Assembly: GCF_900129645.1 (NCBI RefSeq)
Contig: NZ_FSQZ01000001.1
Coordinates: 1,822,001 to 1,886,000 of the forward strand
Length of the DNA stretch: 64,000 nucleotides
Direction of reading: 5' to 3'
DNA from: Acetomicrobium flavidum
GTDB lineage: Bacteria > Synergistota > Synergistia > Synergistales > Acetomicrobiaceae
Under the pieces are notes generated by a model, which was not told where the DNA came from, searched no databases, and saw nothing but the letters and a program-made list of their open reading frames with translations. The position numbers were made by a program, and so were the translations under genes. This document shows, piece after piece, positions 17,705-41,805 of this stretch (within the stretch, counting starts at the first letter, position 1; every line of letters starts with the position of its first letter).

Positions 17705-18071
17705 ATTATACACCTGCAGGATATAGCTTAGCATCTAATTAATCTTTTTGTTGCTTATAACCCCTTCTTCCAGTATCCTGATCTCCCGCTTCCTGGGCAC
17801 GACCTTTGCCGTAAGAAACCCTGGCCGGAAACCGATGGTGTTTCGTACGGGCAATATCATTTACTACTATAAGTTTTTAAAGCAGCTTTAATCTTTCCTC
17901 GACGAAGTCGATGTGCCGTTCCATTTCTTTAGCAGCAGCATCACCGTTTCTTTTTTGTATATATGGTATTATAATTTTTGAAAGCTATTATGCTATTGAT
18001 GAGATGATATGAAATTTGAAAAAACCAATTTTATAATTTCGCGGTAAGCTCTATACGAAAAGGTGATGAAA
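17705..18071. other. Decayed intergenic region with gene remnants
   Basis: About 365 bp with no intact gene. The minus strand holds the tail of a GntR-type regulator (listed separately). Left of it, minus frames of 17740-17870 look protein-like (with TAKVVPRKREIRILEEG) but I cannot assign them. TATAAT at 17970 with a poor -35 may be the promoter of the alcohol dehydrogenase. Confidence 0.5.
17877..17958 (-). pseudogene. C-terminal remnant of a GntR/FCD-family transcriptional regulator
   Basis: Minus-strand translation gives NGDAAAKEMERHIDFVEERLKAAL and a stop. The pattern (GDA-x-A-x-x-M-x-x-H, then RL near the end) is the typical last helix of FCD-domain GntR regulators. Only about 27 residues remain, and nothing recognisable precedes them, so it is a leftover of a deleted gene. 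Sequence match is from pattern recognition only. Confidence 0.5.
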
Positions 18072-19235: not shown

Positions 19236-19257
19236 AGCCCATGGAGAGCTGCTGTTA

Positions 19258-20526
19258 ATGAAAAGCTTAAGAGAAGATGCCCTTAGGATAATAGAGGATT
19301 CTATTAGCTCGGTATTGCCCGAAAGGGCAGTGGAACAAGAGCTTAGAAAGCTAGATTTGGGTGACAAGATTTATTTGGTCGCCATAGGAAAAGCTGCCTG
19401 GAGGATGGCCAAGTCCGCGAAGGACTGTCTTAAGGACAAGGTGAAAGGCGGCGTTGTCATCACCAAATACGGACATTCCCAAGGTCCAATAGAGGGGCTG
19501 AAGATCTACGAAGCGGGCCATCCCATACCCGACGAAAATACGATCAGCTCCACGAAAGAGGCCGTAGAACTTGCGAAGGGCCTATCGAAGGACGATACTG
19601 TGCTGTTTTTGGTCTCCGGAGGAGGGTCTGCACTTTTTGAGCTTCCCGTAGATGGCGTGAGCCTGGAGGATATAAAGAACGTCACCGATATGCTTTTAAG
19701 GTGCGGGGCCAATATCGTGGAGATAAACGCCATCAGAAAGCGGATGTCTCAGGTAAAGGGCGGAAGGTTTGCTCTGATGGCCTCGCCAGCCAAGGTGTAT
19801 TCCCTCGTTCTTTCAGACGTTTTGGGCGACAGGCTTGATAGCATCGCCTCAGGCCCCGCTTATCCCGACTCGACGACGGTCGAAGACGTGAGAAAAATAA
19901 TAAGGAAATACGACTTAAAATTGCCGAGGCATATACTTCAAAGCCTGAGCGAAGAAACCCCTAAAAGCCTTGACAACGTTGAAACCAGGATAATAGGAAG
20001 CGTCTCCAAGGTATGTGAAAGCGCAAAAAATGTGGCTGCAAGTTTGGGATACAATGCCATGATCCTGACTACCACGCTAGATTGTGAGGCAAGCGAAGCA
20101 GGCCTGTTTTTGGCCGCGATTGCCAGAGAAGAGGTTGAAAAAGAAAGGCCTCTGAAAAGGCCCTGTGCGATAATCCTGGGCGGCGAGACGGTCGTACACG
20201 TAAAAGGAACCGGAAAAGGGGGCAGGAACCAGGAGCTTGTCCTGTCTGCTGCCCGAGGCATAAAAAACTGTACAGGAGTTGTGATTGCCTCCGTAGGTAC
20301 GGACGGTACCGACGGTCCGACGGATGCGGCGGGCGGTATCGTCGACGGAAGGACGGCGACATTATTAGAGGAAGCCGGCATAGATATCGACGACGCCTTA
20401 AACGACAACGATTCCTATCACGCCTTACAAAAAGTCAATAGCTTGATAAGGACAGGGCCGACGGGCACAAACGTAAATGATTTGATATTTATATTATGCG
20501 ATGAGACGAAAGTCCGGGAAAATTGA
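19258..20526 (+). CDS. Glycerate 2-kinase (MOFRL/GckA family)
   Basis: 422 residues, in the usual range of the GckA/TtuD family, which phosphorylates D-glycerate to 2-phosphoglycerate using ATP. Visible marks: GKAAWRMA near residue 44, VLFLVSGGGSALFE near 117-130, RKRMSQVKGGR near 160 and LSDVLGD near 180. The C-terminal MOFRL region carries GGRNQELVL near 322 and VGTDGTDGPTDAAGG near 340. It lies directly behind the alcohol dehydrogenase. Its stop codon is eight bases before the start of the left tRNA-Val repeat. Confidence 0.93.
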   Translation: MKSLREDALRIIEDSISSVLPERAVEQELRKLDLGDKIYLVAIGKAAWRMAKSAKDCLKDKVKGGVVITKYGHSQGPIEGLKIYEAGHPIPDENTISSTKEAVELAKGLSKDDTVLFLVSGGGSALFELPVDGVSLEDIKNVTDMLLRCGANIVEINAIRKRMSQVKGGRFALMASPAKVYSLVLSDVLGDRLDSIASGPAYPDSTTVEDVRKIIRKYDLKLPRHILQSLSEETPKSLDNVETRIIGSVSKVCESAKNVAASLGYNAMILTTTLDCEASEAGLFLAAIAREEVEKERPLKRPCAIILGGETVVHVKGTGKGGRNQELVLSAARGIKNCTGVVIASVGTDGTDGPTDAAGGIVDGRTATLLEEAGIDIDDALNDNDSYHALQKVNSLIRTGPTGTNVNDLIFILCDETKVREN

Positions 20527-21804: not shown

Positions 21805-23193
21805 TTATTCCTTCCTCAAGAGCTCCACGAAGCTTCTGACGTTTTTGACTTCTTCCAGGTTAAACAAGGCCTCAGCGATCCTGTCGAGTTTTTTGTCGTC
21901 TTGGATTGCCTTGAAGCCCAGGGTTTTGAACTTCCAGAGCAACTCTTCCTTAGTGAAGGGGTTTTTGGGATGTCCCTTGGGATAATTTACCTCCAGGTTG
22001 AACACACGTCCGTCGTTTAAGTGGATGTCGATCTTAACGGTGTAGCGAAGAGCCCTGGGCAGGTTTTCTATTTCGGGATCGTCGACGACCTCAACTTTTC
22101 TTGCGAACTCCAGTATCTTGGGATCTTTGATCTTGTCTTCGGTAAATTGGTCGATAAAGGCGTTCCCCTCCATGAGCGTGACGGCACAAACGTAGGGATG
22201 GCTTAACTGCGCCGAGACCACGCTTTTGATGTCATCTACGTCGACGGAGTATTTTCTCGTTATAGATGTGGTATGAACGACAATCTTTTTTATGTCCTCG
22301 GGCTTTATGTCGGGATGTTCTGCTTTGAACTTCCTTAAGCCGTCTATGGTCGTGTGCTTGCTTCGACAAGTGGAGTAGAATTTAAGTCCAATGCCCATGA
22401 GCTCCCAACGGTCACCCAACTCTCCGCAGGTGCGCTCTTCGTCGTAGACTCTGTCGGTGAAGCAGTGATAAAATCCTCCGAATTCGTTTTCAAAGACGTC
22501 TTCTATTCCAGTGAAACCTTCTTTTGCGAGCAAAGCTCCGACGATGGCTCCTTCCGAGGATTTGGAGGGCACTATCCTTTTTGCCATGGAGGCAAACTGT
22601 ACGGCCTGCAGGCCGCTTGCCCAGTTTCCTGAAATTCCCATGGCGTGTTGCATTTGTTCAGCGTTCAAGCCAAGCAGCCTTCCCACGCCCGCTGTCGAAC
22701 CGAATACGCAGGTGGTTCCCGTGTTGTTAAATCCCTGATGGGCCAGCTCCATGCCGATGGGTGCGGCCACGCGGCAGGATATTTCGTAGGCTAGGGCGGC
22801 GGCGACCAAAAATTCCTTGCCGCTTACGCTTTCAAGCATCTCAGCAAAGGAGGTGACACATCCCAAAACACCTGTGGAAACGTGAATTATTCCGTCGGTA
22901 TGCGTGTCGTCGAGCTCAAAGGAGTTTATGGCCGAGCCGTTTATCATCATGGCGGCGGTGACGGAAGTTTTATCCCTCGTTCCCCATATGGAGGCTTCCT
23001 TTCTGTCCGTCCTGGCCGTCAGGACGTCTTTGTAGATCTTCATCCACGGGGTGGTGGATCCGAATAGTCCGCATCCATAACCGTCAAGCATGACGTTTTT
23101 GAGGTGTTCTATCACCTCCGAGGGAATGTCCTCGTATTTCAGGCTGACAGCGAATTCCGATAACCGTCTGCTCATTGTCTGTTTTTCCGACAT
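21805..23193 (-). CDS. MmgE/PrpD family protein, copy 1
   Basis: 462 residues, the usual length of the MmgE/PrpD (2-methylcitrate dehydratase) superfamily. Typical marks: MINGSAINSFELDDTHTDGIIHVSTGVLG near residues 83-110, then FNNTGTTCVFGSTAGVGRLLGL near 153 and FYSTCRSKHTTIDGL near 273. The HPSS-type histidine seen in many members is replaced here by DDTHTDG and IIHVS. Members dehydrate or isomerise branched tri- and dicarboxylic acids. Last gene of the AtuA operon, 36 bp after copy 2. The ATG has GAGGGGG upstream. Confidence 0.85.
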   Translation of the reverse strand: MSEKQTMSRRLSEFAVSLKYEDIPSEVIEHLKNVMLDGYGCGLFGSTTPWMKIYKDVLTARTDRKEASIWGTRDKTSVTAAMMINGSAINSFELDDTHTDGIIHVSTGVLGCVTSFAEMLESVSGKEFLVAAALAYEISCRVAAPIGMELAHQGFNNTGTTCVFGSTAGVGRLLGLNAEQMQHAMGISGNWASGLQAVQFASMAKRIVPSKSSEGAIVGALLAKEGFTGIEDVFENEFGGFYHCFTDRVYDEERTCGELGDRWELMGIGLKFYSTCRSKHTTIDGLRKFKAEHPDIKPEDIKKIVVHTTSITRKYSVDVDDIKSVVSAQLSHPYVCAVTLMEGNAFIDQFTEDKIKDPKILEFARKVEVVDDPEIENLPRALRYTVKIDIHLNDGRVFNLEVNYPKGHPKNPFTKEELLWKFKTLGFKAIQDDKKLDRIAEALFNLEEVKNVRSFVELLRKE

Positions 23194-23229
23194 CTTCTTT
23201 TCCCCCTCTATTAATTTAAAAAATATGCC

Positions 23230-24594
23230 CTAGAACCTTAACAGTTTCATCAAACTTCTTACCGGCGCGTCGGGCGATCCGTGTAACGTATTTTCGATGA
23301 TCTCCGCCTGTCTTTTCTTTGAAATTACCCCTTCCGTGACGTCGATGAACTTATCTATCAATTCTTCGTCTGTCATTGGATTTTCCGGGTCACCCTTTGG
23401 ATAATCTACGCGCGATGAATAGATATTGCCTTTTTTATCCTTAATTTGAACGATCATGCTCCTGGGATTCGGATATAGCTTTTGAATTTCAGGATCTATT
23501 TCTATGGTGATCTTTTTTGCAATTTCATGCACCTTTGGGTCCTTTATCGCCTCATCCGTGTACTCCTGAAGTCCGGCTTTGCCTCTGACCAGTATTGAGG
23601 CGATCCCGTATTGGATGCTCAAGCGTGCGTGCAAGACCGTTTGGTAATCGGGGATATCAGAGCCTTGCTTGGCGTTTTGGTGTGTGAGGATATGGATTTG
23701 GTCAATGTCTTCCGGCGTCAAAGGGTGTTCATTTAGGATGTTTAAAGTTGCTTCGTTTGCATAATGGACATATCTGCAGGAGGGGTATGGCTTGAAGTAG
23801 ATGGACAATATGTCGTATTCGCTGCCCAAGCCCTTCGTTATGGATGAGATGTCGTATCGGTCAGAGAAACAGTGACAGAACCCGAGACGTCCCTCGATTA
23901 CTCCTTTTGGGCCCGTCAGGCCTTCTTTAGCCAGTAGGGCAGTCAAGATTCCGTTTCTTGCAGCGTTACCGGGGTGTAAGTGCTTCACCAAAGAGCCGTC
24001 TATCTCGTATTGATTGATGCCCGATGCCAGGCTTCCGGCAAGCCCCAAGGCGTTGACCGTTTCTTCGACGCTTAAGTTTAATATTTGGCAGCAGGCTGCC
24101 GTCGTGCCAAAGTGAGCGACCGTTCCCGTTGGATGAAATCCCTTGAGGTAGTGGTGTGGGTTCATGGATTTTCCTATCCTTATGGAGACTTCGTAGCCCA
24201 CGGCGATGGCGGTGATCAAATCCCGAGCAGTTTTTCCTTCCGCCTCACATAGGGCGAGGGAGGAAGGTATGATCGAGGATCCGGGATGGTAAGTCGCATG
24301 TCTTGAGCCGTCGTCGAGTTCTAGAGCGTGCGCTGCGATGCCGTTTGCGAAGGCAGCCGTTTGAGGAGATCTCATGATGTCCGTTCCAATTATCGTAGCC
24401 TTGGGCGGCTCCTCCAGGGACCTTGCGTAGTTTTGGGCTATCTTTCCTGATGTCGAGTGATAGCTTCCGGCTATTACGGCTCCGCAGGTGTCCAAAAGGC
24501 ATCTTTTAGCCTGGTGGACCACCTCTTTGGGCAAGTTTTCGTAAGTTGCCCTTTGTACGAAATCTGCCAGCCTTTCGGAGACGCTTTTGGTCAT
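23230..24594 (-). CDS. MmgE/PrpD family protein, copy 2
   Basis: 454 residues from an ATG with GGGAGG seven bases upstream (a longer frame begins five codons earlier without support). The family motif LDTCGAVIAGSYHSTSGKIA lies near residue 29, ALELDDGSRHATYHPGSSIIPSSLA near 90-114, and YFKPYPSCRYVHYA near 266. The HPGS and histidine-rich segments are conserved, so a dehydratase/isomerase activity on a branched polycarboxylate is likely. Its start lies two bases after the stop of the DUF4387 gene; translational coupling is likely. Confidence 0.88.
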   Translation of the reverse strand: MTKSVSERLADFVQRATYENLPKEVVHQAKRCLLDTCGAVIAGSYHSTSGKIAQNYARSLEEPPKATIIGTDIMRSPQTAAFANGIAAHALELDDGSRHATYHPGSSIIPSSLALCEAEGKTARDLITAIAVGYEVSIRIGKSMNPHHYLKGFHPTGTVAHFGTTAACCQILNLSVEETVNALGLAGSLASGINQYEIDGSLVKHLHPGNAARNGILTALLAKEGLTGPKGVIEGRLGFCHCFSDRYDISSITKGLGSEYDILSIYFKPYPSCRYVHYANEATLNILNEHPLTPEDIDQIHILTHQNAKQGSDIPDYQTVLHARLSIQYGIASILVRGKAGLQEYTDEAIKDPKVHEIAKKITIEIDPEIQKLYPNPRSMIVQIKDKKGNIYSSRVDYPKGDPENPMTDEELIDKFIDVTEGVISKKRQAEIIENTLHGSPDAPVRSLMKLLRF

Positions 24595-24596
24595 CG

Positions 24597-24923
24597 TCAG
24601 TCCTCCCACGGTATCTCCAGGGAAAAGAGGGGAGCGTACTGCTGACAGCCGTAGACATCCGTTTCGGCAGGTCCGCCGCTTGGAATCGGGCGCTGATAAT
24701 TTGCCTTGATGCCCATGCCCGGATCAAAGAACATGAAGTCTAAGATCTTTTCAGGTTCTACGTTATAGGCCCTGGCTATCGCCTCCCTCGTTATGGCTCC
24801 GCTTTTTTTGACCCTTTCGTAAATTTCCCGATCGTCGAATATGATCTCCAGGGTTATCATGAAGCTTCCTGCATTCTTGCTCCTCACGGTTCTGGCCAAA
24901 TCACAGATATTTTTTGTCTTCAT
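24597..24923 (-). CDS. DUF4387 family protein
   Basis: 108 residues from an ATG preceded by GGGAGG. It matches the small DUF4387 family: LARTVRSKNAGSFMITLEIIFDD at the N terminus and FDPGMGIKANYQRPIPSGGP toward the end. Members are nearly always encoded next to AtuA (DUF1446) proteins, often as one fused protein, so it is probably a subunit or partner of the AtuA-like protein in this operon. Biochemical role unknown. It overlaps the end of MmgE/PrpD copy 3 by 4 bp (ATGA). Confidence 0.85.
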   Translation of the reverse strand: MKTKNICDLARTVRSKNAGSFMITLEIIFDDREIYERVKKSGAITREAIARAYNVEPEKILDFMFFDPGMGIKANYQRPIPSGGPAETDVYGCQQYAPLFSLEIPWED

Positions 24924-26320
24924 GAACAAAACCTCCCAAAGTGTTCAATGATTTCTTCATAACTTCGACTTTCAATATCCCCCTCTACTGTCATCTTCCA
25001 CAGGCCTTCGAAGAAGGCGTTGGGGTAGTAGGGGGATAACATGGCTTGCAGCTTTTCCTTTAAGTCTTCGTCGGTAACGGGAAATTCCGGCTCTCCCTTA
25101 GCGACGGGGATGTATTTTTCAAAGCTTCGGCCGTCTCTTAAAACTACTTTCATATGGGCACCCCTTTCTTCGGGGTACAGGTCGTTTAATTTTTCATCTT
25201 CTATTACATGAACTTTTTCTGCCAAGGAGATGAGCTTCGGATCGCTTAACGTCTCAGGTGTATAGTCTTGTAGCGTGACGTTTCCTCGAGTCAATGCTAT
25301 TGCTACGGCAAAGGGCAGGCTGAACATGGCCTCTTGCTGGGTCTTTGGCACCTGTATTCGGCCAACTTCCACGATGCCAAGCCTGTAAGTTTTGACTTCG
25401 ATGTATTCTATATCGGCCGGATCGCAGGATAGCGTTTCCCTGGCCTCCCGTGCCAGGTCTATGGCGGCGTGGCAGTGTCTGCAGGTGGGATAAAGCTTCG
25501 TGTAAGTATAGAGGATCTCAAATCGGGTTCCAAGGTCTCCTATTAAGGCTTCGGCCGAGTAATTTGAATCGCACATGGCCTTGAGCCAGCCGTGTTCTCC
25601 CTCAAAAAGGGTCCTGGGGGATTTGGCGCCGCGCTTTGCCAAGTCTGCAGCCAGGACGCCGGCTGAGGCAGACTTTCCGGGCTGAAGGGGCTTCACGCCC
25701 GGATGGTCGTGGAGCATCTCTTGTAATCCTGCGCTTTGAAGCCCGCCCATCGATATGGCGTAAGCCGTCTTTTCTTCGTCCAAGTTTAAGAGCTTCGCAC
25801 ATGCTGCAGCAGCGCCTAAAGAGCCGCATGTCCCTGTCGAATGGAACCCCTTTTTAAGGTGCGCGGGGTTTATCGCCCTGGCCGTCCGAAGCATCATGTC
25901 GTAGCCGATGACGATGGCTAAAAGGATTTCGCCGTAGGAGCTTTTCTCCCTTTCGGCCATGGCCAGCACGGCAGGCATGATTGCCACGGCAGGATGTGAT
26001 GTTCCCCACCTGTGGCCGTCGTCGAGCTCTATAGCGTGAGCCATTACTCCCATCCCGAGGGCGGCATTTTGGGCGGGCATCTTTCTGCCCACGCAAAGCA
26101 GAGTCGACTCAGGCTTGCCTCCCAGCTCCACAAGGTAAGGATTTACCGCCTCGGCCAGCTCTCCCACGTAGAAACCCGCAGCCAGCTCGCTCAAGAAATC
26201 CGCCAGCGAACGTTTTGCCTTCTCGATGACTTCGGCTGGAACTTCGTCATACGACAGCGAGGCGTAGTAGCGGGCAAGTTTACAGAGCAACGTATCCATT
26301 TCGTCCCTCGGCTTGCTCAT
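24920..26320 (-). CDS. MmgE/PrpD family protein, copy 3
   Basis: 466 residues. Motifs in the same order as in the other two copies: HAIELDDGHRWGTSHPAVAIMPAVLA near residue 95, KKGFHSTGTCGSLGAAAACAKLL near 155, and YTKLYPTCRHCHAAIDLA near 280. Three different paralogues in one operon suggest either a multistep conversion or subunits with different substrate preferences. It starts two bases after the stop of the AtuA gene, with GGGGAAGG as ribosome binding site. Confidence 0.88.
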   Translation of the reverse strand: MSKPRDEMDTLLCKLARYYASLSYDEVPAEVIEKAKRSLADFLSELAAGFYVGELAEAVNPYLVELGGKPESTLLCVGRKMPAQNAALGMGVMAHAIELDDGHRWGTSHPAVAIMPAVLAMAEREKSSYGEILLAIVIGYDMMLRTARAINPAHLKKGFHSTGTCGSLGAAAACAKLLNLDEEKTAYAISMGGLQSAGLQEMLHDHPGVKPLQPGKSASAGVLAADLAKRGAKSPRTLFEGEHGWLKAMCDSNYSAEALIGDLGTRFEILYTYTKLYPTCRHCHAAIDLAREARETLSCDPADIEYIEVKTYRLGIVEVGRIQVPKTQQEAMFSLPFAVAIALTRGNVTLQDYTPETLSDPKLISLAEKVHVIEDEKLNDLYPEERGAHMKVVLRDGRSFEKYIPVAKGEPEFPVTDEDLKEKLQAMLSPYYPNAFFEGLWKMTVEGDIESRSYEEIIEHFGRFCS

Positions 26321-26322
26321 CG

Positions 26323-27705
26323 TTACCTTCCCCTGACAGTTTCAAAGGAGAATCTGAATATCTTGTCGTCCAGCGGATCGTCCAATCGCAGGAGATGGTC
26401 TACAGTCCATTTATAGCATTTGTTTTTGGGATAAAGCGGTTCGTCTGTAAGAAGCGCCACCGATCCGCCGGAGGAGTTCATCTGCCCGGGATAGCTCATG
26501 TAGAAAAAGCGGAATTTGGCGCACTTTGCCACGGAGGTGGCAAGCTCCTGATCCTTCGATATGGCTTCGATCACTACGGCTAATTCGTGGCTTGTTATCC
26601 GCTCTTGCGGTTCGAAATCCTTCATGATGGCGTTTTTGCCGTAAACGTGAAAGAAGAGTTCGTAGTCTCCGTCCCTGTGGGGTCCTATGATCTGAGAGAC
26701 CTTCTTTCGGGTGTCCACCAATATTTGGTCGATGTTGGCTATGGCCCTCGTGTCCCTGATGCCGACCAGGTGATACACCCTGTAGCCAACTTCGCCGGCT
26801 CCCTCCAGCTTTACCTTGTAGGTTCCGTCGGGGGAGGGGACGAATTTGCTCCCGTAAACCCTGGTGATGCGGTCCGTTTCGGCGACGTACTCGGATTCGT
26901 GCATGTCCAAGATGCCGCCGGGCACTCCCTGTACGAAGGGGTTCGTCCTCTCGTACATCGAGTGGGCCGCCACGCTGTGGGGCGTTGCCCGCTGTGCCGG
27001 ATGCATCGGCTCTATCGAAAAGTATTCCTTGGTGACCGTCGCGATGATGGATTCCTTCACCATCTGGGGCCAGCAGACCAGCGATGCGCATTCGGCAGCC
27101 TTGCCCATATGCAGGCTGATACCCTTGGGAAAGCCCTTATAGATGGGGTAGGCAGCCAAGACAGCGTCGTCGCAGGCCCTGCCCGCTAAAATTACGTCTG
27201 CGCCTTCTTCCAGGGCATGTACGATCTGCTCTATGCCCATGGATGCCGTTACGTTTGTCGTCTCGTTTAAGACTTCTTCGGTGAGTTCGTAGGGAGCTTC
27301 GAGAGGTTCGATATCCTTGAGCCTTCTTTGCAGCTCCTCCTTGCTGACCTGAGAGTATATCAAGGCCATTTTAAAGGGCTCCAGCTTGTGTTTTTTGGCA
27401 AGCCTTCTGATGATATCCGCATATCTGTCCACTGCGCTGTCTGTGCCCGTAGTGCTGCAGGAGCCTACTATCATGGGGACGTTTCTTTTTCTGCTTTCTA
27501 CCAGGAGGAGTTCGAGGTCGTGTTCCTCCCATTCGATTGGGTTGTGGGGCATGTCGGCGCCCAAAAAGGTGGGACCTGCATCGGCAGTGCCGGCATCTGC
27601 GGCGAAACAATCGATCTGACGTTTCACGCCTTCGTAAAAGGATCCCTCCTCGATTATGTTATCGCCCAAATTTCCCGTTGACACCAATAAAGAAATCTTT
27701 TCCAA
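26323..27705 (-). CDS. AtuA family protein (DUF1446), acyclic terpene utilisation-like
   Basis: I place the start at a TTG (MEKISLLVSTGNLGDN) that has GGAGGG six bases upstream; an in-frame ATG 19 codons earlier has no such site. From here the protein is 460 residues. N-terminal TADAGPTFLG, GSCSTTG near residue 80, and AGRACDDAVLAAYP near 180 are AtuA/DUF1446 features. AtuA was named from citronellol/geranylate degradation in Pseudomonas, but the family is much broader and its chemistry is unknown. First gene of a five-gene operon with three MmgE/PrpD genes and DUF4387. Confidence 0.85.
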   Translation of the reverse strand: MEKISLLVSTGNLGDNIIEEGSFYEGVKRQIDCFAADAGTADAGPTFLGADMPHNPIEWEEHDLELLLVESRKRNVPMIVGSCSTTGTDSAVDRYADIIRRLAKKHKLEPFKMALIYSQVSKEELQRRLKDIEPLEAPYELTEEVLNETTNVTASMGIEQIVHALEEGADVILAGRACDDAVLAAYPIYKGFPKGISLHMGKAAECASLVCWPQMVKESIIATVTKEYFSIEPMHPAQRATPHSVAAHSMYERTNPFVQGVPGGILDMHESEYVAETDRITRVYGSKFVPSPDGTYKVKLEGAGEVGYRVYHLVGIRDTRAIANIDQILVDTRKKVSQIIGPHRDGDYELFFHVYGKNAIMKDFEPQERITSHELAVVIEAISKDQELATSVAKCAKFRFFYMSYPGQMNSSGGSVALLTDEPLYPKNKCYKWTVDHLLRLDDPLDDKIFRFSFETVRGR

Positions 27706-28150
27706 TTCGATCCCTCCGATCGTGATGCCCTTTGCATCATAATAACGGATATACATTTCCATTTCATGATGAGCTTATCACGCTCATATCGTTAAGTCAA
27801 TATACAAAGTTATACCAGATATATATAGATTTTTTGACGTAACATAGATGCACCTGCAGCATATATTCAGTTGTATTAACGGTTTAGTATGTATTATCCA
27901 GCCGTTATTGAAAGGGATTTTGAGCCTATATACATGGTGGGGTTCCTGTATTCCATGCAAAGATCAATTAAAAAATTGTCATATCCTTCATGCAAAATCA
28001 TCATTGAAAATCAGGTTATTCTGCTATTGACAAAAAAAATATTAGTGCTATTTTTAGCTTAGTCAATGGAAATAGATATCCAATATTGCGTTCTCTAAAA
28101 ACATTCTAGGTCTTGCCTTTCGTTCGCCATAGAGACAGGGGTGCATTGAT
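27706..28150. other. Divergent regulatory region of the catabolic island
   Basis: About 445 bp, markedly A+T-rich, between two divergent operons. The plus-strand promoter at 28027-28054 is clear; no equally good minus-strand promoter is seen, though TTGACT occurs on the minus strand near 27794-27799. No gene is recognised. It is the likely target of the NrpR-like regulator at the end of the island. Confidence 0.5.
28027..28054 (+). promoter_or_regulatory. Promoter of the LeuCD-like/TRAP operon
   Basis: TTGACA (perfect), a 16-base spacer and TATTTT, about 97 bases before the first gene. The long leader contains nothing I recognise. Confidence 0.55.
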
Positions 28151-29407
28151 ATGGGAGGAACTATTGTCGAAAAGATAATTTCCAGTCATGTCGGCGAGGA
28201 GGTGAAGGCGGGGGATTTCTGCGTGGTAACCGTGGACATGCTGATGTGCCATGATGCTACCGGCCCCCTTACCATAAAGGCTTTTAATGAATTTGAAAGA
28301 GAAAACGTCTGGGATCCTCAAAGGATTACCTTTGTGTTGGACCACGCTGCCCCGAGCCCTAACGAGAGAGTAAGCGGTCTTCACGACATGTTGAGAAGCT
28401 TCGCGAAGGAGCAGGGAATAAGGTTCTTCGACGTCGGCGAAGGCATCTGCCATCAACTTATGTTGGAGAAGGGGTTGGTCTTGCCTGGCGACATCGCCCT
28501 TGGTACTGACTCTCATACGTGCACCTACGGAGCCGTGGGCGCCCTTTCTTTCGGCATAGGTTCAACCGATGCGAGCGGAGTTCTCCTTACGGGCAAGTTG
28601 TGGCTCAAGGTGCCCTATACAATGAAGATAATTGTTTCAAACAGCTTCAAGCCGGGCGTATATCCCAAAGACCTCATGCTCAATGTCATCGGAATCCTTA
28701 AGGCAGACGGTGCCGATTATCTTTGCTTGGAATTTTCAGGCAGCTGCATCGATGAGATGTCCATGGGGGGCAGGATGACGCTTTGCAATATGGCGATCGA
28801 AGCCGGTGCAAAGGGAGGAATAGTCCCACCGGATGAAAAGACGCTTGAATGGGTTCGCCGCCGTTCATCTCGCTCATTTACCCCTCAGATAAGCGACAAA
28901 GATGCATATTTCATCGATGTCCTCCATATAGATGCAGCAAGTCTTGAACCTCAGGTTGCCTTTCCCCATGCAGTCGATAACGTTCATCCCGTCAGTGAAG
29001 CAACAGGAATTCCTATTCAACAGGTCTTTTTGGGGACATGCACTAACGGTCGCCTTGAAGATCTAAGGGAAGCAGCTTCAATCTTGAGCGGGCGCCGCGT
29101 CCATGATGATGTAAGGTTGCTCGTATGTCCCGCCTCCAGGCAAACCTTACTTGAAGCTATCGAGGAAGGAATTATTTCCACCTTGCTCGAGGCAGGAGCT
29201 ACGGTAATCCCACCCGGTTGCGGTCCCTGCCCGGGAACCCATTTGGGAGTGCCTGGAGATGGCGAGAACGTGATATCCACAGCAAACAGAAACTTCAAAG
29301 GTCGAATGGGAAATAATAAATCTAACATATATCTGGCTTCTCCTGCGACATGTGCTGCTTCCGCCGTTGAGGGAAAGATAGCCGATCCGCGAAAGTACTT
29401 ATCTTGA
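28151..29407 (+). CDS. Aconitase-family dehydratase large subunit (LeuC/DmdA-like)
   Basis: 418 residues, the size of LeuC-type large subunits that work with a separate small subunit. The 4Fe-4S cysteines are in GTDSHTCTYG (near residue 122), GTCTNGR (near 298) and GCGPCPG (near 357). Substrate loops such as LDHAAPSPNE are present. Relatives include isopropylmalate, homoaconitate and 2,3-dimethylmalate dehydratases. The operon partners (small subunit, TRAP uptake, isocitrate-lyase-type lyase) favour a catabolic branched malate or isocitrate-like substrate over leucine synthesis. Inference from context. Confidence 0.88.
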   Translation: MGGTIVEKIISSHVGEEVKAGDFCVVTVDMLMCHDATGPLTIKAFNEFERENVWDPQRITFVLDHAAPSPNERVSGLHDMLRSFAKEQGIRFFDVGEGICHQLMLEKGLVLPGDIALGTDSHTCTYGAVGALSFGIGSTDASGVLLTGKLWLKVPYTMKIIVSNSFKPGVYPKDLMLNVIGILKADGADYLCLEFSGSCIDEMSMGGRMTLCNMAIEAGAKGGIVPPDEKTLEWVRRRSSRSFTPQISDKDAYFIDVLHIDAASLEPQVAFPHAVDNVHPVSEATGIPIQQVFLGTCTNGRLEDLREAASILSGRRVHDDVRLLVCPASRQTLLEAIEEGIISTLLEAGATVIPPGCGPCPGTHLGVPGDGENVISTANRNFKGRMGNNKSNIYLASPATCAASAVEGKIADPRKYLS

Positions 29408-29430
29408 GCTTTAAGGAAAGGTGATGCGAG

Positions 29431-29937
29431 ATGAACGGCTTTTTGTTAAAGGGTCGAGCTCATAAATTTGGCGATGATATCAACACCGACTACATCATAG
29501 CCGGTAAATATACAAAGACATTAAACCTAAATGACCTGGCGTTGCACCTGTTCGAGGACATTGACCCAAACTTTTCTAAGAAGATGAAAGGGGGAGACCT
29601 TGTCGTAGCCGGAAAAAACTTCGGATGCGGCTCCTCAAGGGAGCAGGCTCCAATCGCGATCAAGGAGTCTGGGATAGCTGCCGTGTTGGCCCACTCCTTT
29701 GCCAGGATATTTTTTAGAAACGCCATCAATATCGGACTTCCTGCCTTGGTGTGCAATACGGATGAAATAGATGACGGGGACGAGCTTGAGGTCGACCTGG
29801 AAAATGGATTGGTCTTAAACATCACTAAAGATAAAAAAATTCCAATGGAACCGATGCCCGACATAATGAAGCACATTTTAAGAGAAGGAGGGTTGGTGCC
29901 CTATTTAAAAAAATATGGGGATTTCGTAAGGGAATAA
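29431..29937 (+). CDS. Aconitase-family dehydratase small subunit (LeuD/DmdB-like)
   Basis: 168 residues, the swivelling domain partner of the preceding protein. HKFGDDINTDYIIAGKY near residue 11, GKNFGCGSSREQAP near 57-70 and the conserved AHSFARIFFRNAINIGLP near 88-105 are diagnostic. The start has AAAGGTGAT upstream and lies 23 bp after the large subunit. Together they should hydrate or dehydrate a 2- or 3-hydroxy dicarboxylate through an iron-sulfur cluster. Confidence 0.9.
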   Translation: MNGFLLKGRAHKFGDDINTDYIIAGKYTKTLNLNDLALHLFEDIDPNFSKKMKGGDLVVAGKNFGCGSSREQAPIAIKESGIAAVLAHSFARIFFRNAINIGLPALVCNTDEIDDGDELEVDLENGLVLNITKDKKIPMEPMPDIMKHILREGGLVPYLKKYGDFVRE

Positions 29938-30016
29938 AAACTCTATGTCGCTCCCTACGGAATGTCCAGCTTTTAGAAGATGTTTTAAGCAACTAAGATT
30001 AAAAGGAGGGAGAAAG

Positions 30017-31027
30017 TTGAAAAAGAAGGGATATTGGCTCGTTTTCCTCGTCTTAACATTATGTCTTCTGACTTCTCCGGCGATGGCACAAAAACATTAT
30101 CTGAACATGGGAAGCACGTCATCTACCTCGGGAGTATATGCCTGGTGCGTCGCAACGGCAAACGTGATCAACAAGTCGCAAAACGACATTCAGGTGACGG
30201 TCATAGAAAGCGGCGCTGCACTGGACAACTTACGAAAGATCAAAGCAGGGGTGTTCGATTTCGCACTGTGCGTTGATCTGCCTTCTGCCTTTCAAATGGT
30301 AAGGGGAATGGACACTTTTCAAAAGGAAAAGTGGGAAGATGTCAGGTGGCTTTTTACACGCAACATCACTGCTGACCGTTTGTACGTTCGAAAGGACTCT
30401 GGTGTCACTACCTTTAAAGAATTGAAGGGCAAAAAATTCTGTCCCGGAATCCCTGGTTCCGCTTCGGCCGATTATATTTTTAAATTTAACGATCTGCTGA
30501 AAGCAGACATAAAGCTCATGCCTGCCGCTATCGGCGATGCAGTTGACGCCATGAAAAATGGCGCTATAATCGGGCTTTCAAAGACTTCGCCTTTGGACAG
30601 TTTGGATGCAGCCATGATCGAAGTTAATTTGACCCTCCCCATAACGGTGATCGGTTATAGCGAAGACGATGTCGCAAAGATTAGAGAGCGTTACCCCTAC
30701 ATGATTTTCCTGGAGACGCCCAAAGGTAAGATTAAACAGTTACCTGAAGTTGGACCCATCATGGAAGAATGTGCCATAGTAGGTGCTGTTGCTTCTGCGA
30801 GGTTGCCCGAGGAGCTCGGATATAAAATCGTGAAGGCCTACGTCGAAAACTTGGAAGAAGTGGCATCCGCCTATCCGGCTATTAAGGGTTGGGATCCAGT
30901 GGCCGATTTCTTCAAAAACGTTCCTCCAGGCGGTGAAATTTACGCCCATGCTGGTCTGATACGTTACGCTCAAGAAAGGGGAATTGAAGTGCCTGAGAGG
31001 TTTATACCCCCCGAATATAAAAAGTAG
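30017..31027 (+). CDS. TAXI family TRAP transporter solute-binding protein
   Basis: 336 residues from a TTG start with AGGAGG seven bases upstream; a longer frame to 29945 lacks one. A signal peptide (KKKGYWLVFLVLTLCLLTSPAMA) is followed by LNMGSTSSTSGVYAWCVATA, the TAXI-family ligand-binding opening, and a segment KFCPGIPGSASADYIF. The protein delivers an unknown organic acid to the membrane permease encoded 102 bp downstream. It belongs to the dehydratase-lyase operon, so its ligand is probably the substrate of that pathway. Confidence 0.9.
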   Translation: MKKKGYWLVFLVLTLCLLTSPAMAQKHYLNMGSTSSTSGVYAWCVATANVINKSQNDIQVTVIESGAALDNLRKIKAGVFDFALCVDLPSAFQMVRGMDTFQKEKWEDVRWLFTRNITADRLYVRKDSGVTTFKELKGKKFCPGIPGSASADYIFKFNDLLKADIKLMPAAIGDAVDAMKNGAIIGLSKTSPLDSLDAAMIEVNLTLPITVIGYSEDDVAKIRERYPYMIFLETPKGKIKQLPEVGPIMEECAIVGAVASARLPEELGYKIVKAYVENLEEVASAYPAIKGWDPVADFFKNVPPGGEIYAHAGLIRYAQERGIEVPERFIPPEYKK

Positions 31028-31090
31028 GTCGGCTGTTTGGTAGGAATCCGACAGCCGACGTCAGTAAATGTTTCTGCGTTAGCTGTCGGA
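31028..31090 (+). promoter_or_regulatory. Overlapping alternative hairpins between TRAP genes
   Basis: GTCGGCTGT (31028-31036) pairs with ACAGCCGAC (31051-31059). Alternatively TCCGACAGC (31047-31055), which overlaps the second arm, pairs with GCTGTCGGA (31082-31090). Both are perfect 9-bp stems and cannot form together. No T-run follows the second. They may protect the mRNA of the binding protein or attenuate expression of the permease. Confidence 0.6.
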
Positions 31091-31129
31091 AACGGGCTTT
31101 TGAATGAAAAGGAGGATTAATATTTTGCC

Positions 31130-33013
31130 ATGGCCAAGGACATGAAGACCTCCATAATCTTTTGGTTGGCCGTTATACTCTCTGCAGTGCAGCTCACAGT
31201 CCCAGTATTTTTCCATTTGCTCGATTTGCAGCTCAGGGCAATTCACGTAGGCCTGGGCATATCGCTTGCTGCGCTTGTATTTCCTTTCTCAAAAAAATAT
31301 CAAGCCAATAAACTCACATCTATAGATATCTTGGCACTAATTATCATTATTGCTGCAAATATCAATATATACCTTAAAACGCTTAACATATACATGTATC
31401 CCGGAAGTGCCGGGATGTTGGATTTACTGCTTGGCATTGGCCTCGCAATTGTCATCTTGGATACTACGAGAAGGGCTGTGGGTTGGGCTATCCCAATAAT
31501 AGTGATTGGTCTGATATTTTATGCGATGTTCGGTGACCTGTTTCCCGGGATGTGGAAATTAAGGGGTTTATCCTGGGATTTTGTCGTAAATTCGATATAT
31601 TATTCTCCATTGGGGATATACGGCAGCATCACAGCCATGTCAGCCACTTTTATTTCCCTATTTATCATATTCGGATCGCTGCTGTCTGCCGGTGGAGGAG
31701 GAAAGACGTTTATAGATATAGCCTTTGCATTGACAGGTCGATGGAGGGGAGGCCCTGCCAAAGCTGCCATAGTGGCCAGCGCGCTTTTTGGCAGCATATC
31801 GGGTAGTGCCGTGGCCAACGTTGCCGTGACGGGAAATTACACCATCCCCATGATGAAAAAACTGGGTTACCCCAAAGATTTTGCCGGCGCAGTAGAAGCG
31901 ATAGCCTCTACTGGCGGAGGAATCACGCCTCCTATAATGAGCATAGCCGCCTTCATGATGGCAGAATTTCTGAGCATATCCTACTTAAAAATCATAGGGT
32001 ACGCCCTGATCCCTTGTATTCTTTACTATACCAGCATTTATGCCGGCGTTCATTTTATGACCTTGCGGCTGGGATTGGTGCCCATGCCCGAGGAAGAGAT
32101 ACCTAAGTGGAGGGATGTCTTGACATTTCAACGCCTTGCCTGCCTCATAATACCTATGGTTGTATTGCTTGGGTTGATTGCCATCGGTAGGCCTCTTCTC
32201 ACTGCCGGCTTTTATACTTGCTTGACCACGATAGTCTTAATGCTCATAACCGACATTCCCAAGAAGGGCTTTAAGGAAACCTTTAAGAACCTGCTTTTGG
32301 CCCTGGAAGATGGCGGGACCAGCCTTGCCAGGATAATTCCGATCCTGGTCTCGGTAAGCATACTTGTGAACATGGTCGGCATAACAGGCATCGCCCCAAA
32401 GATCAGCGGGCTGATTATGGACGTTGGCGGCAACAACTTCATCATAGCTTTGATGATAGCCACTGTCATACCCTTTTTGCTTGGGACGTCGCTTCCCGTT
32501 GTGCCCACGTACGTGCTTTCGCTTTCCATATTGGCACCGCCTTTGCTTCGTTTGGGAGCAGATCCGGTTGCGCTGCATCTTTTCTTCATCTATTGGTCCT
32601 TGTTAGGAGGAGTAACCCCGCCAACGTGCACCCAGGCTATCGTAGCTGCCGGCATCTCTCAGGGAGATTGGTTTAAGACAGGGATTAACGCCGTGAAATT
32701 GGGAATAGTGGCTTTTATAATGCCCTTCTTTTTTGTGTGGAACCCCGCCTTTGTCGGGCGTGGTGATCCTGTGGATGTGGCGGTCTGTGCTGTAACGGGA
32801 TTTTTGGGAGCCATATTTATGGGATATGGGTTTTTTGGCCACATGAATAGCAAAGTCAACTTCATTTTTAGGATAGTGTTCTTCCTTGGCGGAGTTTTGT
32901 TGCTATTTCCTAATCATCTTTATTCGGCAGTAGGGCTAGCCGTAGCTATCGCCATGTTGATAGCTCAAAAGGCTGTAACCAAAAAAATCAAACTGGAGGA
33001 GTTGTCGCTATGA
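31130..33013 (+). CDS. TRAP transporter fused permease (4TM/12TM, DctQM-like)
   Basis: 627-residue integral membrane protein with many hydrophobic helices. The N-terminal part corresponds to the small 4TM subunit, and the rest to the large 12TM subunit typical of TAXI systems (FGSISGSAVANVAVTGNYTIP near residue 222, ASTGGGITPPIM near 261, LLGGVTPPTCTQA near 490). It uses a sodium or proton gradient to import the ligand bound by the preceding protein. AGGAGG lies about 14 bases before the ATG, a little far. It overlaps the lyase gene by 4 bp. Confidence 0.92.
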   Translation: MAKDMKTSIIFWLAVILSAVQLTVPVFFHLLDLQLRAIHVGLGISLAALVFPFSKKYQANKLTSIDILALIIIIAANINIYLKTLNIYMYPGSAGMLDLLLGIGLAIVILDTTRRAVGWAIPIIVIGLIFYAMFGDLFPGMWKLRGLSWDFVVNSIYYSPLGIYGSITAMSATFISLFIIFGSLLSAGGGGKTFIDIAFALTGRWRGGPAKAAIVASALFGSISGSAVANVAVTGNYTIPMMKKLGYPKDFAGAVEAIASTGGGITPPIMSIAAFMMAEFLSISYLKIIGYALIPCILYYTSIYAGVHFMTLRLGLVPMPEEEIPKWRDVLTFQRLACLIIPMVVLLGLIAIGRPLLTAGFYTCLTTIVLMLITDIPKKGFKETFKNLLLALEDGGTSLARIIPILVSVSILVNMVGITGIAPKISGLIMDVGGNNFIIALMIATVIPFLLGTSLPVVPTYVLSLSILAPPLLRLGADPVALHLFFIYWSLLGGVTPPTCTQAIVAAGISQGDWFKTGINAVKLGIVAFIMPFFFVWNPAFVGRGDPVDVAVCAVTGFLGAIFMGYGFFGHMNSKVNFIFRIVFFLGGVLLLFPNHLYSAVGLAVAIAMLIAQKAVTKKIKLEELSL

Positions 33014-33897
33014 AGAAATCTACATTACTTAAAAATATGATTGCTGAAAGAAAAGCCCTCGTTTGTCCGGGCGCTCACGACGTAATTTCCGCCAAACTCA
33101 TAGAGCGCGCAGGCTTTAAGGCATGCCAGGTCAGCGGCTTCGGCCTTTCGGCTTCATATCTTGGGCTTCCGGATATGGCCTTTTTATCCTTCTCCGAGGC
33201 GTTGAACTTTTCCAAAAACATAATAGATGCAGTAGAAATACCCGTAATGGTGGATGCCGATACGGGCTTTGGGAATGCCATTAACGCAATGAGAGTTACC
33301 GAGGAATTCATAAAGATCGGGGCAGCGGGGATGAACATCGAGGACCAAGTATTCCCAAAGCGTTGCGGGCACCTTGAAGGAAAGCAAATAATCCCGATGG
33401 AGGAAATGGTGCTCAAGATAAAGGCTTGCATAGAGGTCAAAAAGAAATTAGACCCGGATTTCGTCATTAACGCAAGGACCGATGCCATAGCCGTGAGCGG
33501 TGTGGATGAAGCAATAAGACGGGGCAATGCCTATGCCGATGCCGGAGCGGATTTGATATTCATCGAGGCTCCGCGCACCAAGGAAGACATAAAGAGATTA
33601 ACCAGGGAAATTCAGGCGCCCATAAGCATTAATCTGTTCGATGCCGTAAGCGGTGGCAAGACTCCTCTTATAAGCATTGACGAGCTTCGCGAGATGGGAG
33701 TAGCTCGCATAAGCATCCCCGTAGGCCCTCTGTTTGCTGCCATAAGGGGCATGATCAATTACCTTGACGTGATAAAAGATGGCATCGCCGAAGGAAGGGA
33801 CGACCTGGTGGTTCCCTTTGCAGAGTTTAAAGAACTGATAGGATTTAACAAATATCGAGATCTTGAAAAAAAGTATTTGCCGGAGTTCATTTCTTAA
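33010..33897 (+). CDS. Isocitrate lyase/PEP mutase family carbon-carbon lyase, copy A
   Basis: 295 residues. PGAHDVISAKLIERAGFKA near residue 21, VDADTGFGN near 78-86, EDQVFPKRCGHLEGK near 108-122 (the KRCGH active-site loop) and VINARTDA near 148 place it in the methylisocitrate lyase / dimethylmalate lyase branch. Such enzymes split a 2-hydroxy-3-alkyl acid into pyruvate or glyoxylate plus a carboxylic acid. ATGA overlap with the transporter gene. As the last enzyme of the operon it plausibly performs the final cleavage of the imported substrate. Exact substrate unknown; it resembles copy B at 37635. Confidence 0.88.
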   Translation: MKKSTLLKNMIAERKALVCPGAHDVISAKLIERAGFKACQVSGFGLSASYLGLPDMAFLSFSEALNFSKNIIDAVEIPVMVDADTGFGNAINAMRVTEEFIKIGAAGMNIEDQVFPKRCGHLEGKQIIPMEEMVLKIKACIEVKKKLDPDFVINARTDAIAVSGVDEAIRRGNAYADAGADLIFIEAPRTKEDIKRLTREIQAPISINLFDAVSGGKTPLISIDELREMGVARISIPVGPLFAAIRGMINYLDVIKDGIAEGRDDLVVPFAEFKELIGFNKYRDLEKKYLPEFIS

Positions 33898-33974: not shown

Positions 33975-34107
33975 TTATTATATGCATCATCTTAATTGCA
34001 GGAAAAATATCCAATCTTGGTTTAAAATACTTTTATCTTTGATTGCAAGATCTAACAACTGTCAAAGCTATGAGTTTTTGCAGCTGGGATACCAGGAGGT
34101 TATGGTA

Positions 34108-35121
34108 GTGAAGATTCCAATGGTAAACAATGTGGAGGAATACCCTCCAACGGTAGTTGAGATACTTAGAAGCCTATATTTCTCCGAAGATCCGCTTACG
34201 TCCGTTGAATTGAAAGATCAATTGGCTAGGCGTGGCTTTAGCATCGATGACAGGACTGTTCGTTATCACCTTTCCAATTTGGAAAAAGACGGCTTCATTA
34301 CCCGTTTTGGAAGAAAGGGGGTGCTGCTTACTCCCGAGGGCAGCGAAGAGGCAAGGGCTTTGTTCGTCTTTGACAGGATAGGCCTGTCTTCTATGGAAAC
34401 CGAGATACTCATAACGAAAAGTGACCTCGATTTATGTTCTAACAAGGGAAAAGCAATCGTAAACATAACTGCTGTGCAGGAAGAGCGTTTCGATGAAGCT
34501 GTGTCCATTTTAAAGGAAGTATCAAATTCCAACATTATAGTTTCTCCATTGGTTGCGTTTTTGGAGGGAGGTCAGCGAATATGGAATTACAGGGTACCGG
34601 AAGGCCATAGGGCAATTCTTTGTCTTTCTTCCGCCAACTACGATGTTGTCTTGAGGCGATGTGGTGTGCATGTAGAAACGGTCGCTACAGGTCTTTTTAG
34701 GATACAGGATCATAAGTATAAGGGTTTTGCCGATATCATTTCCCATTCGGGGACCACGCTTAGCCCCGGCGAGCTTCTCGTCAGAGGTGGTTTTACCGAC
34801 GTAATGTCTGCGGTGCGCACCGGAAGAGGATATGTTACCGCTGCGATTAAGACGTTTCCGTCCTTTATGTACGAAACAGTTGTTGAGGCCATCAAAAATT
34901 GTAAGAACGACAACATTAGCGGCCTTTTTGAGTTGGGCTATCTGATGCCTCAGAAATACCAAATGAGCATTAAGGATCGTACTCGCGGGTATATGCTTGT
35001 CTTTGGTGGTGCCAATTACTTTGCGCCTCTGGTCGAATGGGGAATTACTAGTGCCCTCTCCATAGCATCGGGGCTATTTAATATACAGGATATGCATGTT
35101 CCTCAAGCGAAAATCCAATAA
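34108..35121 (+). CDS. NrpR-like transcriptional regulator (winged helix plus DUF128 domain)
   Basis: 337 residues from a GTG eight bases after AGGAGG; the ATG two codons earlier is too close to that site. Residues ~10-75 form a winged-helix domain (TSVELKDQLARRGFSIDDRTVRYHLSNLEKDGFI). The rest matches the DUF128/NRD effector domain known from the archaeal nitrogen regulator NrpR, which binds 2-oxoglutarate. Only one effector domain is present. Its position at the end of the island suggests it controls the divergent catabolic operons in response to an oxo- or dicarboxylic acid. Its last codons lie inside the right tRNA repeat. Confidence 0.8.
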   Translation: MKIPMVNNVEEYPPTVVEILRSLYFSEDPLTSVELKDQLARRGFSIDDRTVRYHLSNLEKDGFITRFGRKGVLLTPEGSEEARALFVFDRIGLSSMETEILITKSDLDLCSNKGKAIVNITAVQEERFDEAVSILKEVSNSNIIVSPLVAFLEGGQRIWNYRVPEGHRAILCLSSANYDVVLRRCGVHVETVATGLFRIQDHKYKGFADIISHSGTTLSPGELLVRGGFTDVMSAVRTGRGYVTAAIKTFPSFMYETVVEAIKNCKNDNISGLFELGYLMPQKYQMSIKDRTRGYMLVFGGANYFAPLVEWGITSALSIASGLFNIQDMHVPQAKIQ

Positions 35122-35183
35122 AAATGGTGGGCGACACAGGTTTCGAACCTGTGACCTCTTCCGTGTGAGGGAAGCGCTCTCCC
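35109..35183. repeat. Right copy of the 75-bp direct repeat
   Basis: Matches 20534-20608 at 73 of 75 positions. It contains the last four codons of the NrpR-like gene (including the stop) and 59 bases of tRNA-Val. Fits an attR-type site. Confidence 0.85.
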
Positions 35184-35199
35184 GCTGAGCTAGTCGCCC
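35125..35199 (-). tRNA. tRNA-Val (anticodon CAC)
   Basis: Minus strand, 75 nt. Acceptor GGGCGAC pairs with GTCGCCC; D stem GCTC/GAGC; anticodon arm CTTCC-CTCACAC-GGAAG with CAC; T arm ACAGG-TTCGAAA-CCTGT; discriminator A and encoded CCA. All stems pair, so it should be functional. Confidence 0.95.
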
Positions 35200-35334
35200 A
35201 CCGCGGTTTTGATTATAAACTACCATCCTGTGTTATGGCAAGCGAAACTTACCGGAACGTAGGATGAACCTCAAAAGAACGATTACCTAAGAATTAAGGC
35301 CAAATGCCGCGGATGCGCATGGCCTGGTATATCC

Positions 35335-35556
35335 TTATTCCCCAGTCCTTCTTTGAACCCATTTGAAATAGCTGACGGTTACGCCGACGGAGTTTGCCAG
35401 CACGTCTGGGATAATGAGGATTCCTTTGTCGATGAGCACCTTTTCAGCCTCAGGAGTTACGGGACCGATGGCCAGCTCTAATGTGATATTTGCCTTTACG
35501 TCGTGGGCGTTCGAATTATTGATTGTCCCTTCAAAGGCAGCAGGTCGGCGATCCAT
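35335..35556 (-). pseudogene. Glutamate dehydrogenase C-terminal fragment
   Basis: 73 codons in one frame. NAHDVKANITLELAIGPVTPEAEKVL and PDVLANSVGVTVSYFKWVQ match the NAD(P)-binding C-terminal domain of Glu/Leu/Phe/Val dehydrogenases, where the intact sequence reads roughly NGPTTPEAD and PDILANAGGVTVSYFEWVQ. Upstream catalytic and downstream residues are absent, so this is a decayed remnant. Close to the tRNA, which marks the locus as a rearrangement site. Confidence 0.75.
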
Positions 35557-35786
35557 GTCATTATTAGGGAATTTATTGCCTAGTTATATCGTCCGGATGA
35601 TATGGCAATGATATATATCACCTCTGTGATCAAAAATCAAGCATTAAGCTTAAGAAATTTTTGGGTTAATATTTTTCATGGGAAAGGGGCAAATATAATG
35701 TTAAGATTCAAAAAAAGTTCGATTACAGAGGTCACGGAAGTTTATAACTTCAACACCAGAAGGGTCCTAATTGCTGATAGAAGCAT

Positions 35787-35835
35787 GAGAAAAGCCCCGA
35801 AAACTTTAAACAAGTTTAGCTCAAGTTTCGGGGCT
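35787..35835 (-). terminator. Terminator of the amidohydrolase gene
   Basis: AGCCCCGAAA (35793-35802) pairs with TTTCGGGGCT (35826-35835). On the minus strand the stem is followed by TTTCTC. A perfect 10-bp stem. Confidence 0.75.
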
Positions 35836-35875
35836 GTCTTCTGACGAACCAAGCTTTAATTATTTATGGTGTAAA

Positions 35876-37438: not shown

Positions 37439-37545
37439 TTTGTCAACCTCCAATGTATTTTTTTGCCTGAATCATATCCTTTATTTTACAGCACCATGAT
37501 GGAGGATTACCCATACATTTGTCCATTTTTCTGTACGGAGGAAGC

Positions 37546-37573
37546 TTGACAAGGAATAGTGGAGTGGTAGAAT
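37546..37573 (+). promoter_or_regulatory. Promoter of the second lyase operon
   Basis: TTGACA (perfect), 16-base spacer, TAGAAT (5 of 6). It lies 62 bases before the GTG start and just before a perfect inverted repeat. Confidence 0.7.
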
Positions 37574-37582
37574 ACAATTAAC

Positions 37583-37619
37583 GTTCGATATTCTGGTACT
37601 ACGTTCAATGATATTGAAC
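37583..37619 (+). promoter_or_regulatory. Probable IclR-type operator pair
   Basis: GTTCAAT-GAT-ATTGAAC at 37603-37619 is a perfect inverted repeat. A related half-conserved site GTTCGATATTC starts at 37583, about 20 bp (two helical turns) earlier. Both sit immediately downstream of the -10 box, suited to repression. The IclR-family regulator encoded two genes on is the natural candidate. Confidence 0.6.
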
Positions 37620-37634
37620 ACTGAGGTGATCTGA

Positions 37635-38561: not shown

Positions 38562-38590
38562 AGCTAAATAATTTAGGGAGTGCAGAGCAG

Positions 38591-39394: not shown

Positions 39395-39449
39395 AGGGCA
39401 AAAAATTTTATGCAAATATATCTTAATATGAAAAAAGGAGGACAAATCC

Positions 39450-41385: not shown

Positions 41386-41424
41386 AAGCAATTTATACAT
41401 CGTATTGGATGGCAACACGTATTT

Positions 41425-41790: not shown

Positions 41791-41805
41791 ATATAGCGCT
41801 TTTTA

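Follow-up and report, generated by a model that had tools for sequence, protein, structure and literature searches.

Proteins of the AtuA and DUF4387 families, as well as most members of the MmgE/PrpD family, are common and have no assigned function. The closest described counterpart of an AtuA-DUF4387 pair is found in the PDB entries 9erq and 9evf, the chains of which were deposited as the subunits CmlA and CmlB of a citramalate lyase. The name of the reaction is that of the depositors, and no paper describing this lyase or its assay was found in the literature on AtuA, DUF4387, 9ERQ, and 9EVF. Escherichia coli O157:H7 encodes homologs of both chains, ECs_0760 (92% identity to CmlA) and ECs_0759 (84% to CmlB), next to the mesaconase FumD, methylaspartate ammonia-lyase, and glutamate mutase in the methylaspartate (glutamate fermentation) cluster. 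The description of this E. coli cluster left the DUF1446 gene without assignment and the fate of citramalate unclear (PMC4682846, 2015). RefSeq names ECs_0760 a 3-methylaspartate ammonia-lyase and ECs_0759 an acyl-CoA synthetase (L070, 31934-33618), names that are probably wrong. A comparable cluster with genes for methylaspartate ammonia-lyase, CmlA, CmlB, and a fumarase-like mesaconase is present in a Synergistota relative (L116).

Two pathways for branched acids offer further parallels. The methylcitrate cycle employs PrpD, aconitase, and PrpB, while the last steps of nicotinate fermentation combine a LeuCD-type hydratase (DmdAB) with a lyase (Dml). The MmgE/PrpD family includes methylcitrate dehydratase, cis-aconitate decarboxylase, iminodisuccinate epimerase, and methylsuccinate isomerase, all of which, to our knowledge, act on a substituted succinate via an enolate. 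Within the LeuCD-type enzymes, an arginine in the specificity loop of homoaconitase holds the extra carboxylate. A common enolate mechanism has been proposed for the MmgE/PrpD family, involving His102, His152, Lys202, and Lys266 (Pseudomonas aeruginosa numbering) and, in epimerases, Tyr148 as second base (PMC12290011). In methanogens, the nitrogen repressor NrpR binds the operator GGAA-N6-TTCC (PMC2723118; PMC4335013).

Here, we describe a locus of Acetomicrobium flavidum in which relatives of several of these proteins are brought together, analyzed within a stretch of 64,000 nucleotides (the window). Its novelty lies in the combination and in a new subfamily of enzymes whose kinds are known, rather than in the kind of system. 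Five genes lie on the minus strand and were assigned by Pfam, namely MmgE1 (21805-23193), MmgE2 (23230-24609), DUF4387 (24597-24929; PF14330), MmgE3 (24920-26320), and an AtuA-family protein (26323-27762; PF07287). The numbering of the MmgE/PrpD proteins is our own, with MmgE3 adjoining AtuA, and the DUF4387 gene overlaps the genes on both sides. On the plus strand follow the large subunit of a LeuC/HacA-family [4Fe-4S] hydro-lyase (28151-29407; NCBIfam hacA_fam), a LeuD/DmdB-family small subunit (29431-29937; over the cut-off of the LeuD/DmdB subfamily model), a TAXI-family TRAP substrate-binding protein (29945-31027; over the TIGR02122 cut-off and matching TAXI proteins in the PDB), a fused TRAP permease (31130-33013; over the TIGR02123 cut-off), and a carbon-carbon lyase of the PEP mutase/isocitrate lyase superfamily (33010-33897; Pfam and NCBIfam). 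These ten open reading frames and their families are all as listed in an earlier, sequence-only reading of this DNA, which left out an eleventh gene that is part of the unit: an NrpR-type regulator on the plus strand (33982-35121) with a winged helix and the only NRD1_2 domain of the genome. The conserved part of AtuA begins near residue 22, and translation may therefore start further downstream than at the listed ATG. The AtuA protein of Acetomicrobium hydrogeniformans is a 97% match, and the genome has no MmgE genes besides these three. An iron-dependent alcohol dehydrogenase and a glycerate kinase (18063-20526) were rejected as members, since they are near in the genus but not beside the operon in other families.

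Other families of the order carry the ten genes colinearly as AtuA-MmgE3-DUF4387-MmgE2-MmgE1-LeuC-LeuD-TAXI-TRAP-lyase, with identities of 56-83%, a recurrence far beyond chance. Where the contig is long enough, almost every Synergistota locus has the NrpR gene next to the operon; among the single-operon loci it mostly stands divergently alongside (L022, L023, L025, L027, L028), while L024 meets the contig end without it. A genome scan revealed further loci in a Thermovirga, several Synergistaceae bins, and bin GBS-1, and an Armatimonadota bin contains AtuA through lyase without the transporter on its short contig. The two divergent operons of the earlier description thus hold for Acetomicrobium but not elsewhere; among the loci compared, the split is peculiar to this genus. 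In 17 of the 22 genomes of the order with this AtuA subfamily (76-100% identity), the lyase gene is no more than about 12 kb away on the contig of atuA, and in two more it lies on another contig, figures that derive largely from metagenome-assembled contigs, some of them short. Every operon of this type seen has MmgE3 between atuA and the DUF4387 gene, and an Atribacteria bin that contains only TRAP-TAXI-AtuA-MmgE3-DUF4387 (L041) also keeps it with the two. By these sequence comparisons, the eleven genes are one inherited unit. Genome G061 retains NrpR, AtuA, the three MmgE proteins, DUF4387, TAXI, and TRAP (L117), but leuC and the lyase gene are lost from its operon and leuD is reduced to a remnant of 29 residues; two lyases of the same subfamily are encoded elsewhere in this genome. 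The LeuCD-lyase module is therefore separable, and the two halves of the unit may not form one linear pathway. Two genomes of one family have an AAT (acyl-transferase/amide-hydrolase-like) gene directly downstream of the lyase (L047, 9479-10918; L048, 9251-10654), and an opine dehydrogenase and MTTB are extra neighbors in the Atribacteria bin. These additional genes are too inconsistent to serve as clues to the substrate.

The sole PDB match of the AtuA protein is chain A of 9erq/9evf (E 3.3e-71 for 9erq_A), and DUF4387 gives a significant match to chain B alone (E 2.2e-25 for 9erq_B), both over the full length. The statement that these two families have no settled reaction is therefore outdated, and the number of carbon-carbon lyases in the set is probably two rather than one, as the pair matches proteins deposited as a citramalate lyase. 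Like CmlAB, the pair consists of an AtuA-family large and a DUF4387 small subunit and is linked to hydratases, but an MmgE gene separates the two subunit genes, the pair is not part of a glutamate mutase/methylaspartate cluster, and no methylaspartate ammonia-lyase was found in a search of the genome. The identities are 33% to CmlA and 45% to CmlB. The window AtuA falls outside the CmlA clade in a sister clade (local support 1.0), and the CmlA motif GRAYDP aligns with GRACDD, while residues conserved without exception in the family (GRxxD, GKxxEC, KLEGA, GxRD, and HxYG among others) are kept. An AtuA model predicted with nine close homologs had a mean pLDDT of 44, too poor for a fold search. 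From the deposited structure and the gene clusters of its homologs, AtuA-DUF4387 is very likely a CoA-independent lyase that acts on a tertiary 2-hydroxy acid, and in the window pair the reaction type is probably kept with a changed substrate. The latter seems likelier than activity on citramalate itself because this pair belongs to the sister clade, while a second AtuA-DUF4387 pair of the same genome (L018, 8616-16643; C1, near 1722615-1730642) falls in the CmlA clade with 45% identity. The operon of this second pair reads GntR-AtuA-DUF4387-TctC-TctB-TctA-aconitase-isocitrate dehydrogenase, and the pair may act as a lyase of citramalate or of citrate.

The three MmgE/PrpD proteins share both domains and the Asp-Asp and Lys core of the known family members, but they are paralogs with different active sites, none of which is a PrpD equivalog (scores of no more than 76 bits, with cut-offs at 458-950). 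The catalytic His and Tyr pair of the iminodisuccinate-epimerase type is present in MmgE2 (HYLKGFHPTGT, kept in 12 orthologs), the best PDB match of which is the iminodisuccinate epimerase (E 4e-44; motif HYLAGWHPTST), and absent from the other two. MmgE3 has Leu in place of the epimerase Tyr while keeping His and Lys (GFH(S/T)TGT in 15 orthologs). In MmgE1, best matched by the fungal cis-aconitate decarboxylase (E 2e-29), Asn and Ala replace His and Tyr (AHQGFNNTGT) and HVSTG replaces HP, near-invariantly in 13 orthologs. Because these differences show little or no variation among the orthologs, the three proteins are not redundant. Near the second Lys, all three have a Cys followed by Arg (SCR/TCR); this Arg is missing from the iminodisuccinate epimerase and Bacillus subtilis structures.

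The LeuC-like protein scores 562 bits with hacA_fam and keeps the cluster cysteines, but stays under the LEU2 and HacA_Meth equivalog cut-offs. The specificity loop of its LeuD partner reads YTKT, invariant in 14 orthologs and present in all 15 sequences, where homoaconitase has YLRT and isopropylmalate isomerase YLVY. Thus the pair bears neither the homoaconitase nor the isopropylmalate isomerase (YLV(Y/M)) signature, although the loop resembles the former more closely; by analogy, its Lys could hold an extra carboxylate. Like DmdAB with Dml, the pair is encoded together with a lyase of the PEP mutase/isocitrate lyase superfamily. This lyase combines a KRCGHLEGK loop with a three-residue insertion (NL(F/M)DAVxGGKTPL), and its best PDB match is the petal death protein (E 1.4e-61), an alkylmalate lyase. 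The best NCBIfam match, TIGR02317 prpB, gave 254.7 bits against a cut-off of 354.4. This score, the insertion, and CGHL in place of the CGHR of methylisocitrate lyase argue against a methylisocitrate lyase. In other loci, relatives of the lyase (64-73% identity) accompany LeuC-LeuD and a Tct transporter or belong to IclR-TAXI-TRAP-lyase units. Where a LeuD protein is linked to this type of lyase, its loop is (Y/H)TKT, and the LeuCD-linked lyases have PVG(P/L)LF where most LeuCD-free ones have PVGTTF. Since the loops co-vary across contexts, albeit in a small sample, LeuCD and the lyase probably act in sequence. Elsewhere in the genome, a compact LeuC-LeuD-lyase unit (L061, 7324-10642; C1, near 1413323-1416641) with an isopropylmalate-like YLSLT loop and no insertion is, by its sequence, a candidate for a dimethylmalate-type pathway. 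In a second lyase of the PEP mutase/isocitrate lyase type, at 37635-38561, the metal-binding motif DxDTG is replaced by DGGNG.

The regulator has the NRD1_2 domain and winged helix of the methanogen NrpR proteins, and the same operator recurs at its loci. Upstream of atuA, GGAA-N6-TTCC is found exactly in 9 of 14 loci, where 0.14 were expected, and with at most one mismatch in all 14, where 2.3 were expected (first-order Markov simulation, 500 rounds). The probable operator of the window, GGAAATAGATATCC (28068-28081, plus strand), lies in the leuC-atuA intergenic region with one mismatch, and its counterpart is exact in sister species (L019, L020, L030, L031). A second operator-like site, GGATATACATTTCC (27747-27760, plus strand), with one mismatch at the annotated atuA start, would on its own be no more than chance expects; paired sites also occur in L022, L023, L025, and L028. 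As one-mismatch sites are common across the whole window, both sites gain their weight from the comparison only. A genome-wide regulon was ruled out, as the pattern is no commoner in the genome than its reversed control. This result, and the fact that the genome encodes no other member of the family, suggest a local regulator, and in contrast to the nitrogen repressor of methanogens it is situated in a carboxylate degradation locus. A minimal set of AtuA-DUF4387-DcuC-NrpR, i.e., a lyase, a transporter, and the same type of regulator, is present in genome G011 (L026, 7430-11782).

The families, the co-inheritance, the conserved and divergent active sites, and the operator are best explained, with a probability of roughly 0.55, by an NrpR-controlled and TRAP-fed unit for the CoA-independent catabolism of a branched di- or tricarboxylic acid to a 2-oxoacid, acetate, and a short acid. 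The families agree with the uptake of an organic acid, two kinds of hydratase or dehydratase, and a KRCGH-loop carbon-carbon lyase as previously read from the sequence. In the reaction order that we infer, the TAXI-type TRAP transporter would import the acid and the three MmgE/PrpD enzymes would epimerize and hydrate or dehydrate it as a compound of the substituted succinate type, with a tertiary 2-hydroxy acid of the citramalate or citrate type as one of the products. This acid would be split by the CmlAB-like AtuA-DUF4387 enzyme, presumably independent of CoA, into acetate and a 2-oxoacid, which would be pyruvate in the case of citramalate. In a second branch, LeuCD would hydrate an unsaturated acid, or move its hydroxyl group, to give a malate- or isocitrate-type acid, which the partner lyase would split into a 2-oxoacid and a short acid; pyruvate may be released in this step. 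This module might act on a regioisomer or on the second fragment, or serve another acid. NrpR would act on the unit through the GGAA-N6-TTCC sites, its probable signal being a dicarboxylate or an oxoacid. The Lys of the LeuD loop and the additional Arg that the active-site segments of the three MmgE proteins have in common, single residues in each case, favor a tricarboxylate. More tentatively, and at less than even odds, the unit may represent a previously undescribed pathway for CoA- and ACP-independent splitting of a tricarboxylic acid by a new AtuA-DUF4387 subfamily acting on citrate-type tertiary alcohols, together with three specialized MmgE/PrpD enzymes and a nitrogen repressor of archaeal type, NrpR, reused as a local substrate sensor.

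Co-inheritance as one operon and the shared NrpR operator support the earlier proposal of one pathway for both operons and argue against two operons that answer to different substrates. It nevertheless deserves consideration, although we regard it as unlikely, that LeuCD and the lyase serve one acid and AtuA-DUF4387 with the three MmgE proteins another, the two sets being joined for co-regulation only. LeuCD with the lyase, and the lyase alone, have their own transporters elsewhere, the G061 operon kept the other genes after the loss of this module, and L041 lacks it; yet the fused operon has a single transporter, several families and the Armatimonadota bin keep the genes together, and the two lyase copies of G061 may supply the function in trans. 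That the AtuA-DUF4387 enzymes of this clade are not lyases but other enzymes acting on a related acid, e.g., hydratases or isomerases, appears improbable: the low identity to CmlA and the changed GR(A)YDP residues would fit, but both subunits match over their full length, the family-invariant residues are retained, and acid transporters or hydratases are linked to both clades.

The methylcitrate cycle and nicotinate fermentation, which the sequence-only reading had named as parallels, hold as analogies, while membership in either was rejected. Methylitaconate isomerase is related to PrpF, and a search of the genome for PrpF (PF04303) found none. A route resembling the methylcitrate cycle, in which PrpD-like, LeuCD, and PrpB-like enzymes would convert imported methylcitrate or a homolog to pyruvate and succinate with AtuA-DUF4387 as accessory, has all three reaction types, the homoaconitase-like LeuD loop, and the top match to prpB (about 255 bits) in its favor. 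It is nonetheless quite improbable, given that both the PrpD and PrpB equivalog cut-offs are missed by a wide margin, that the lyase has CGHL and an insertion in its substrate loop, and that the unit contains no methylcitrate synthase (PrpC) and the genome no PrpF. We consider it least probable that LeuCD and the lyase are the dimethylmaleate hydratase and dimethylmalate lyase of a nicotinate-type route. The LeuD subfamily assignment, the adjacency of LeuCD and lyase in relatives, and the petal death protein match would suit such enzymes, whereas the Lys of the YTKT loop suggests an additional acid group, the lyase loop carries the insertion, the L061 pair looks the better candidate, AtuA-DUF4387 and the three MmgE proteins among several further enzymes would be left unexplained, and here too a PrpF-family protein is absent from the genome.

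Under the preferred reading of one CoA-independent unit, the locus links a defined subfamily of AtuA-DUF4387 with particular MmgE, LeuCD, and lyase partners, one transporter, and one operator, and a single growth or binding result could assign several families. It suggests that anaerobes may break down branched acids without CoA, and that an NrpR-family protein and its operator apparently serve carbon catabolism rather than nitrogen control. In the surroundings of the unit, the region between NrpR and DcuC (35125-42382) encodes a tRNA-Val, an amidohydrolase, the second lyase, an IclR regulator, a type I dehydroquinase, a shikimate dehydrogenase, and an ECF component. In the sister species DcuC closely follows NrpR, and this block is possibly a tRNA-linked insertion. 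At 8889-9926, the window also encodes a fusion of SAICAR synthetase and PurS.
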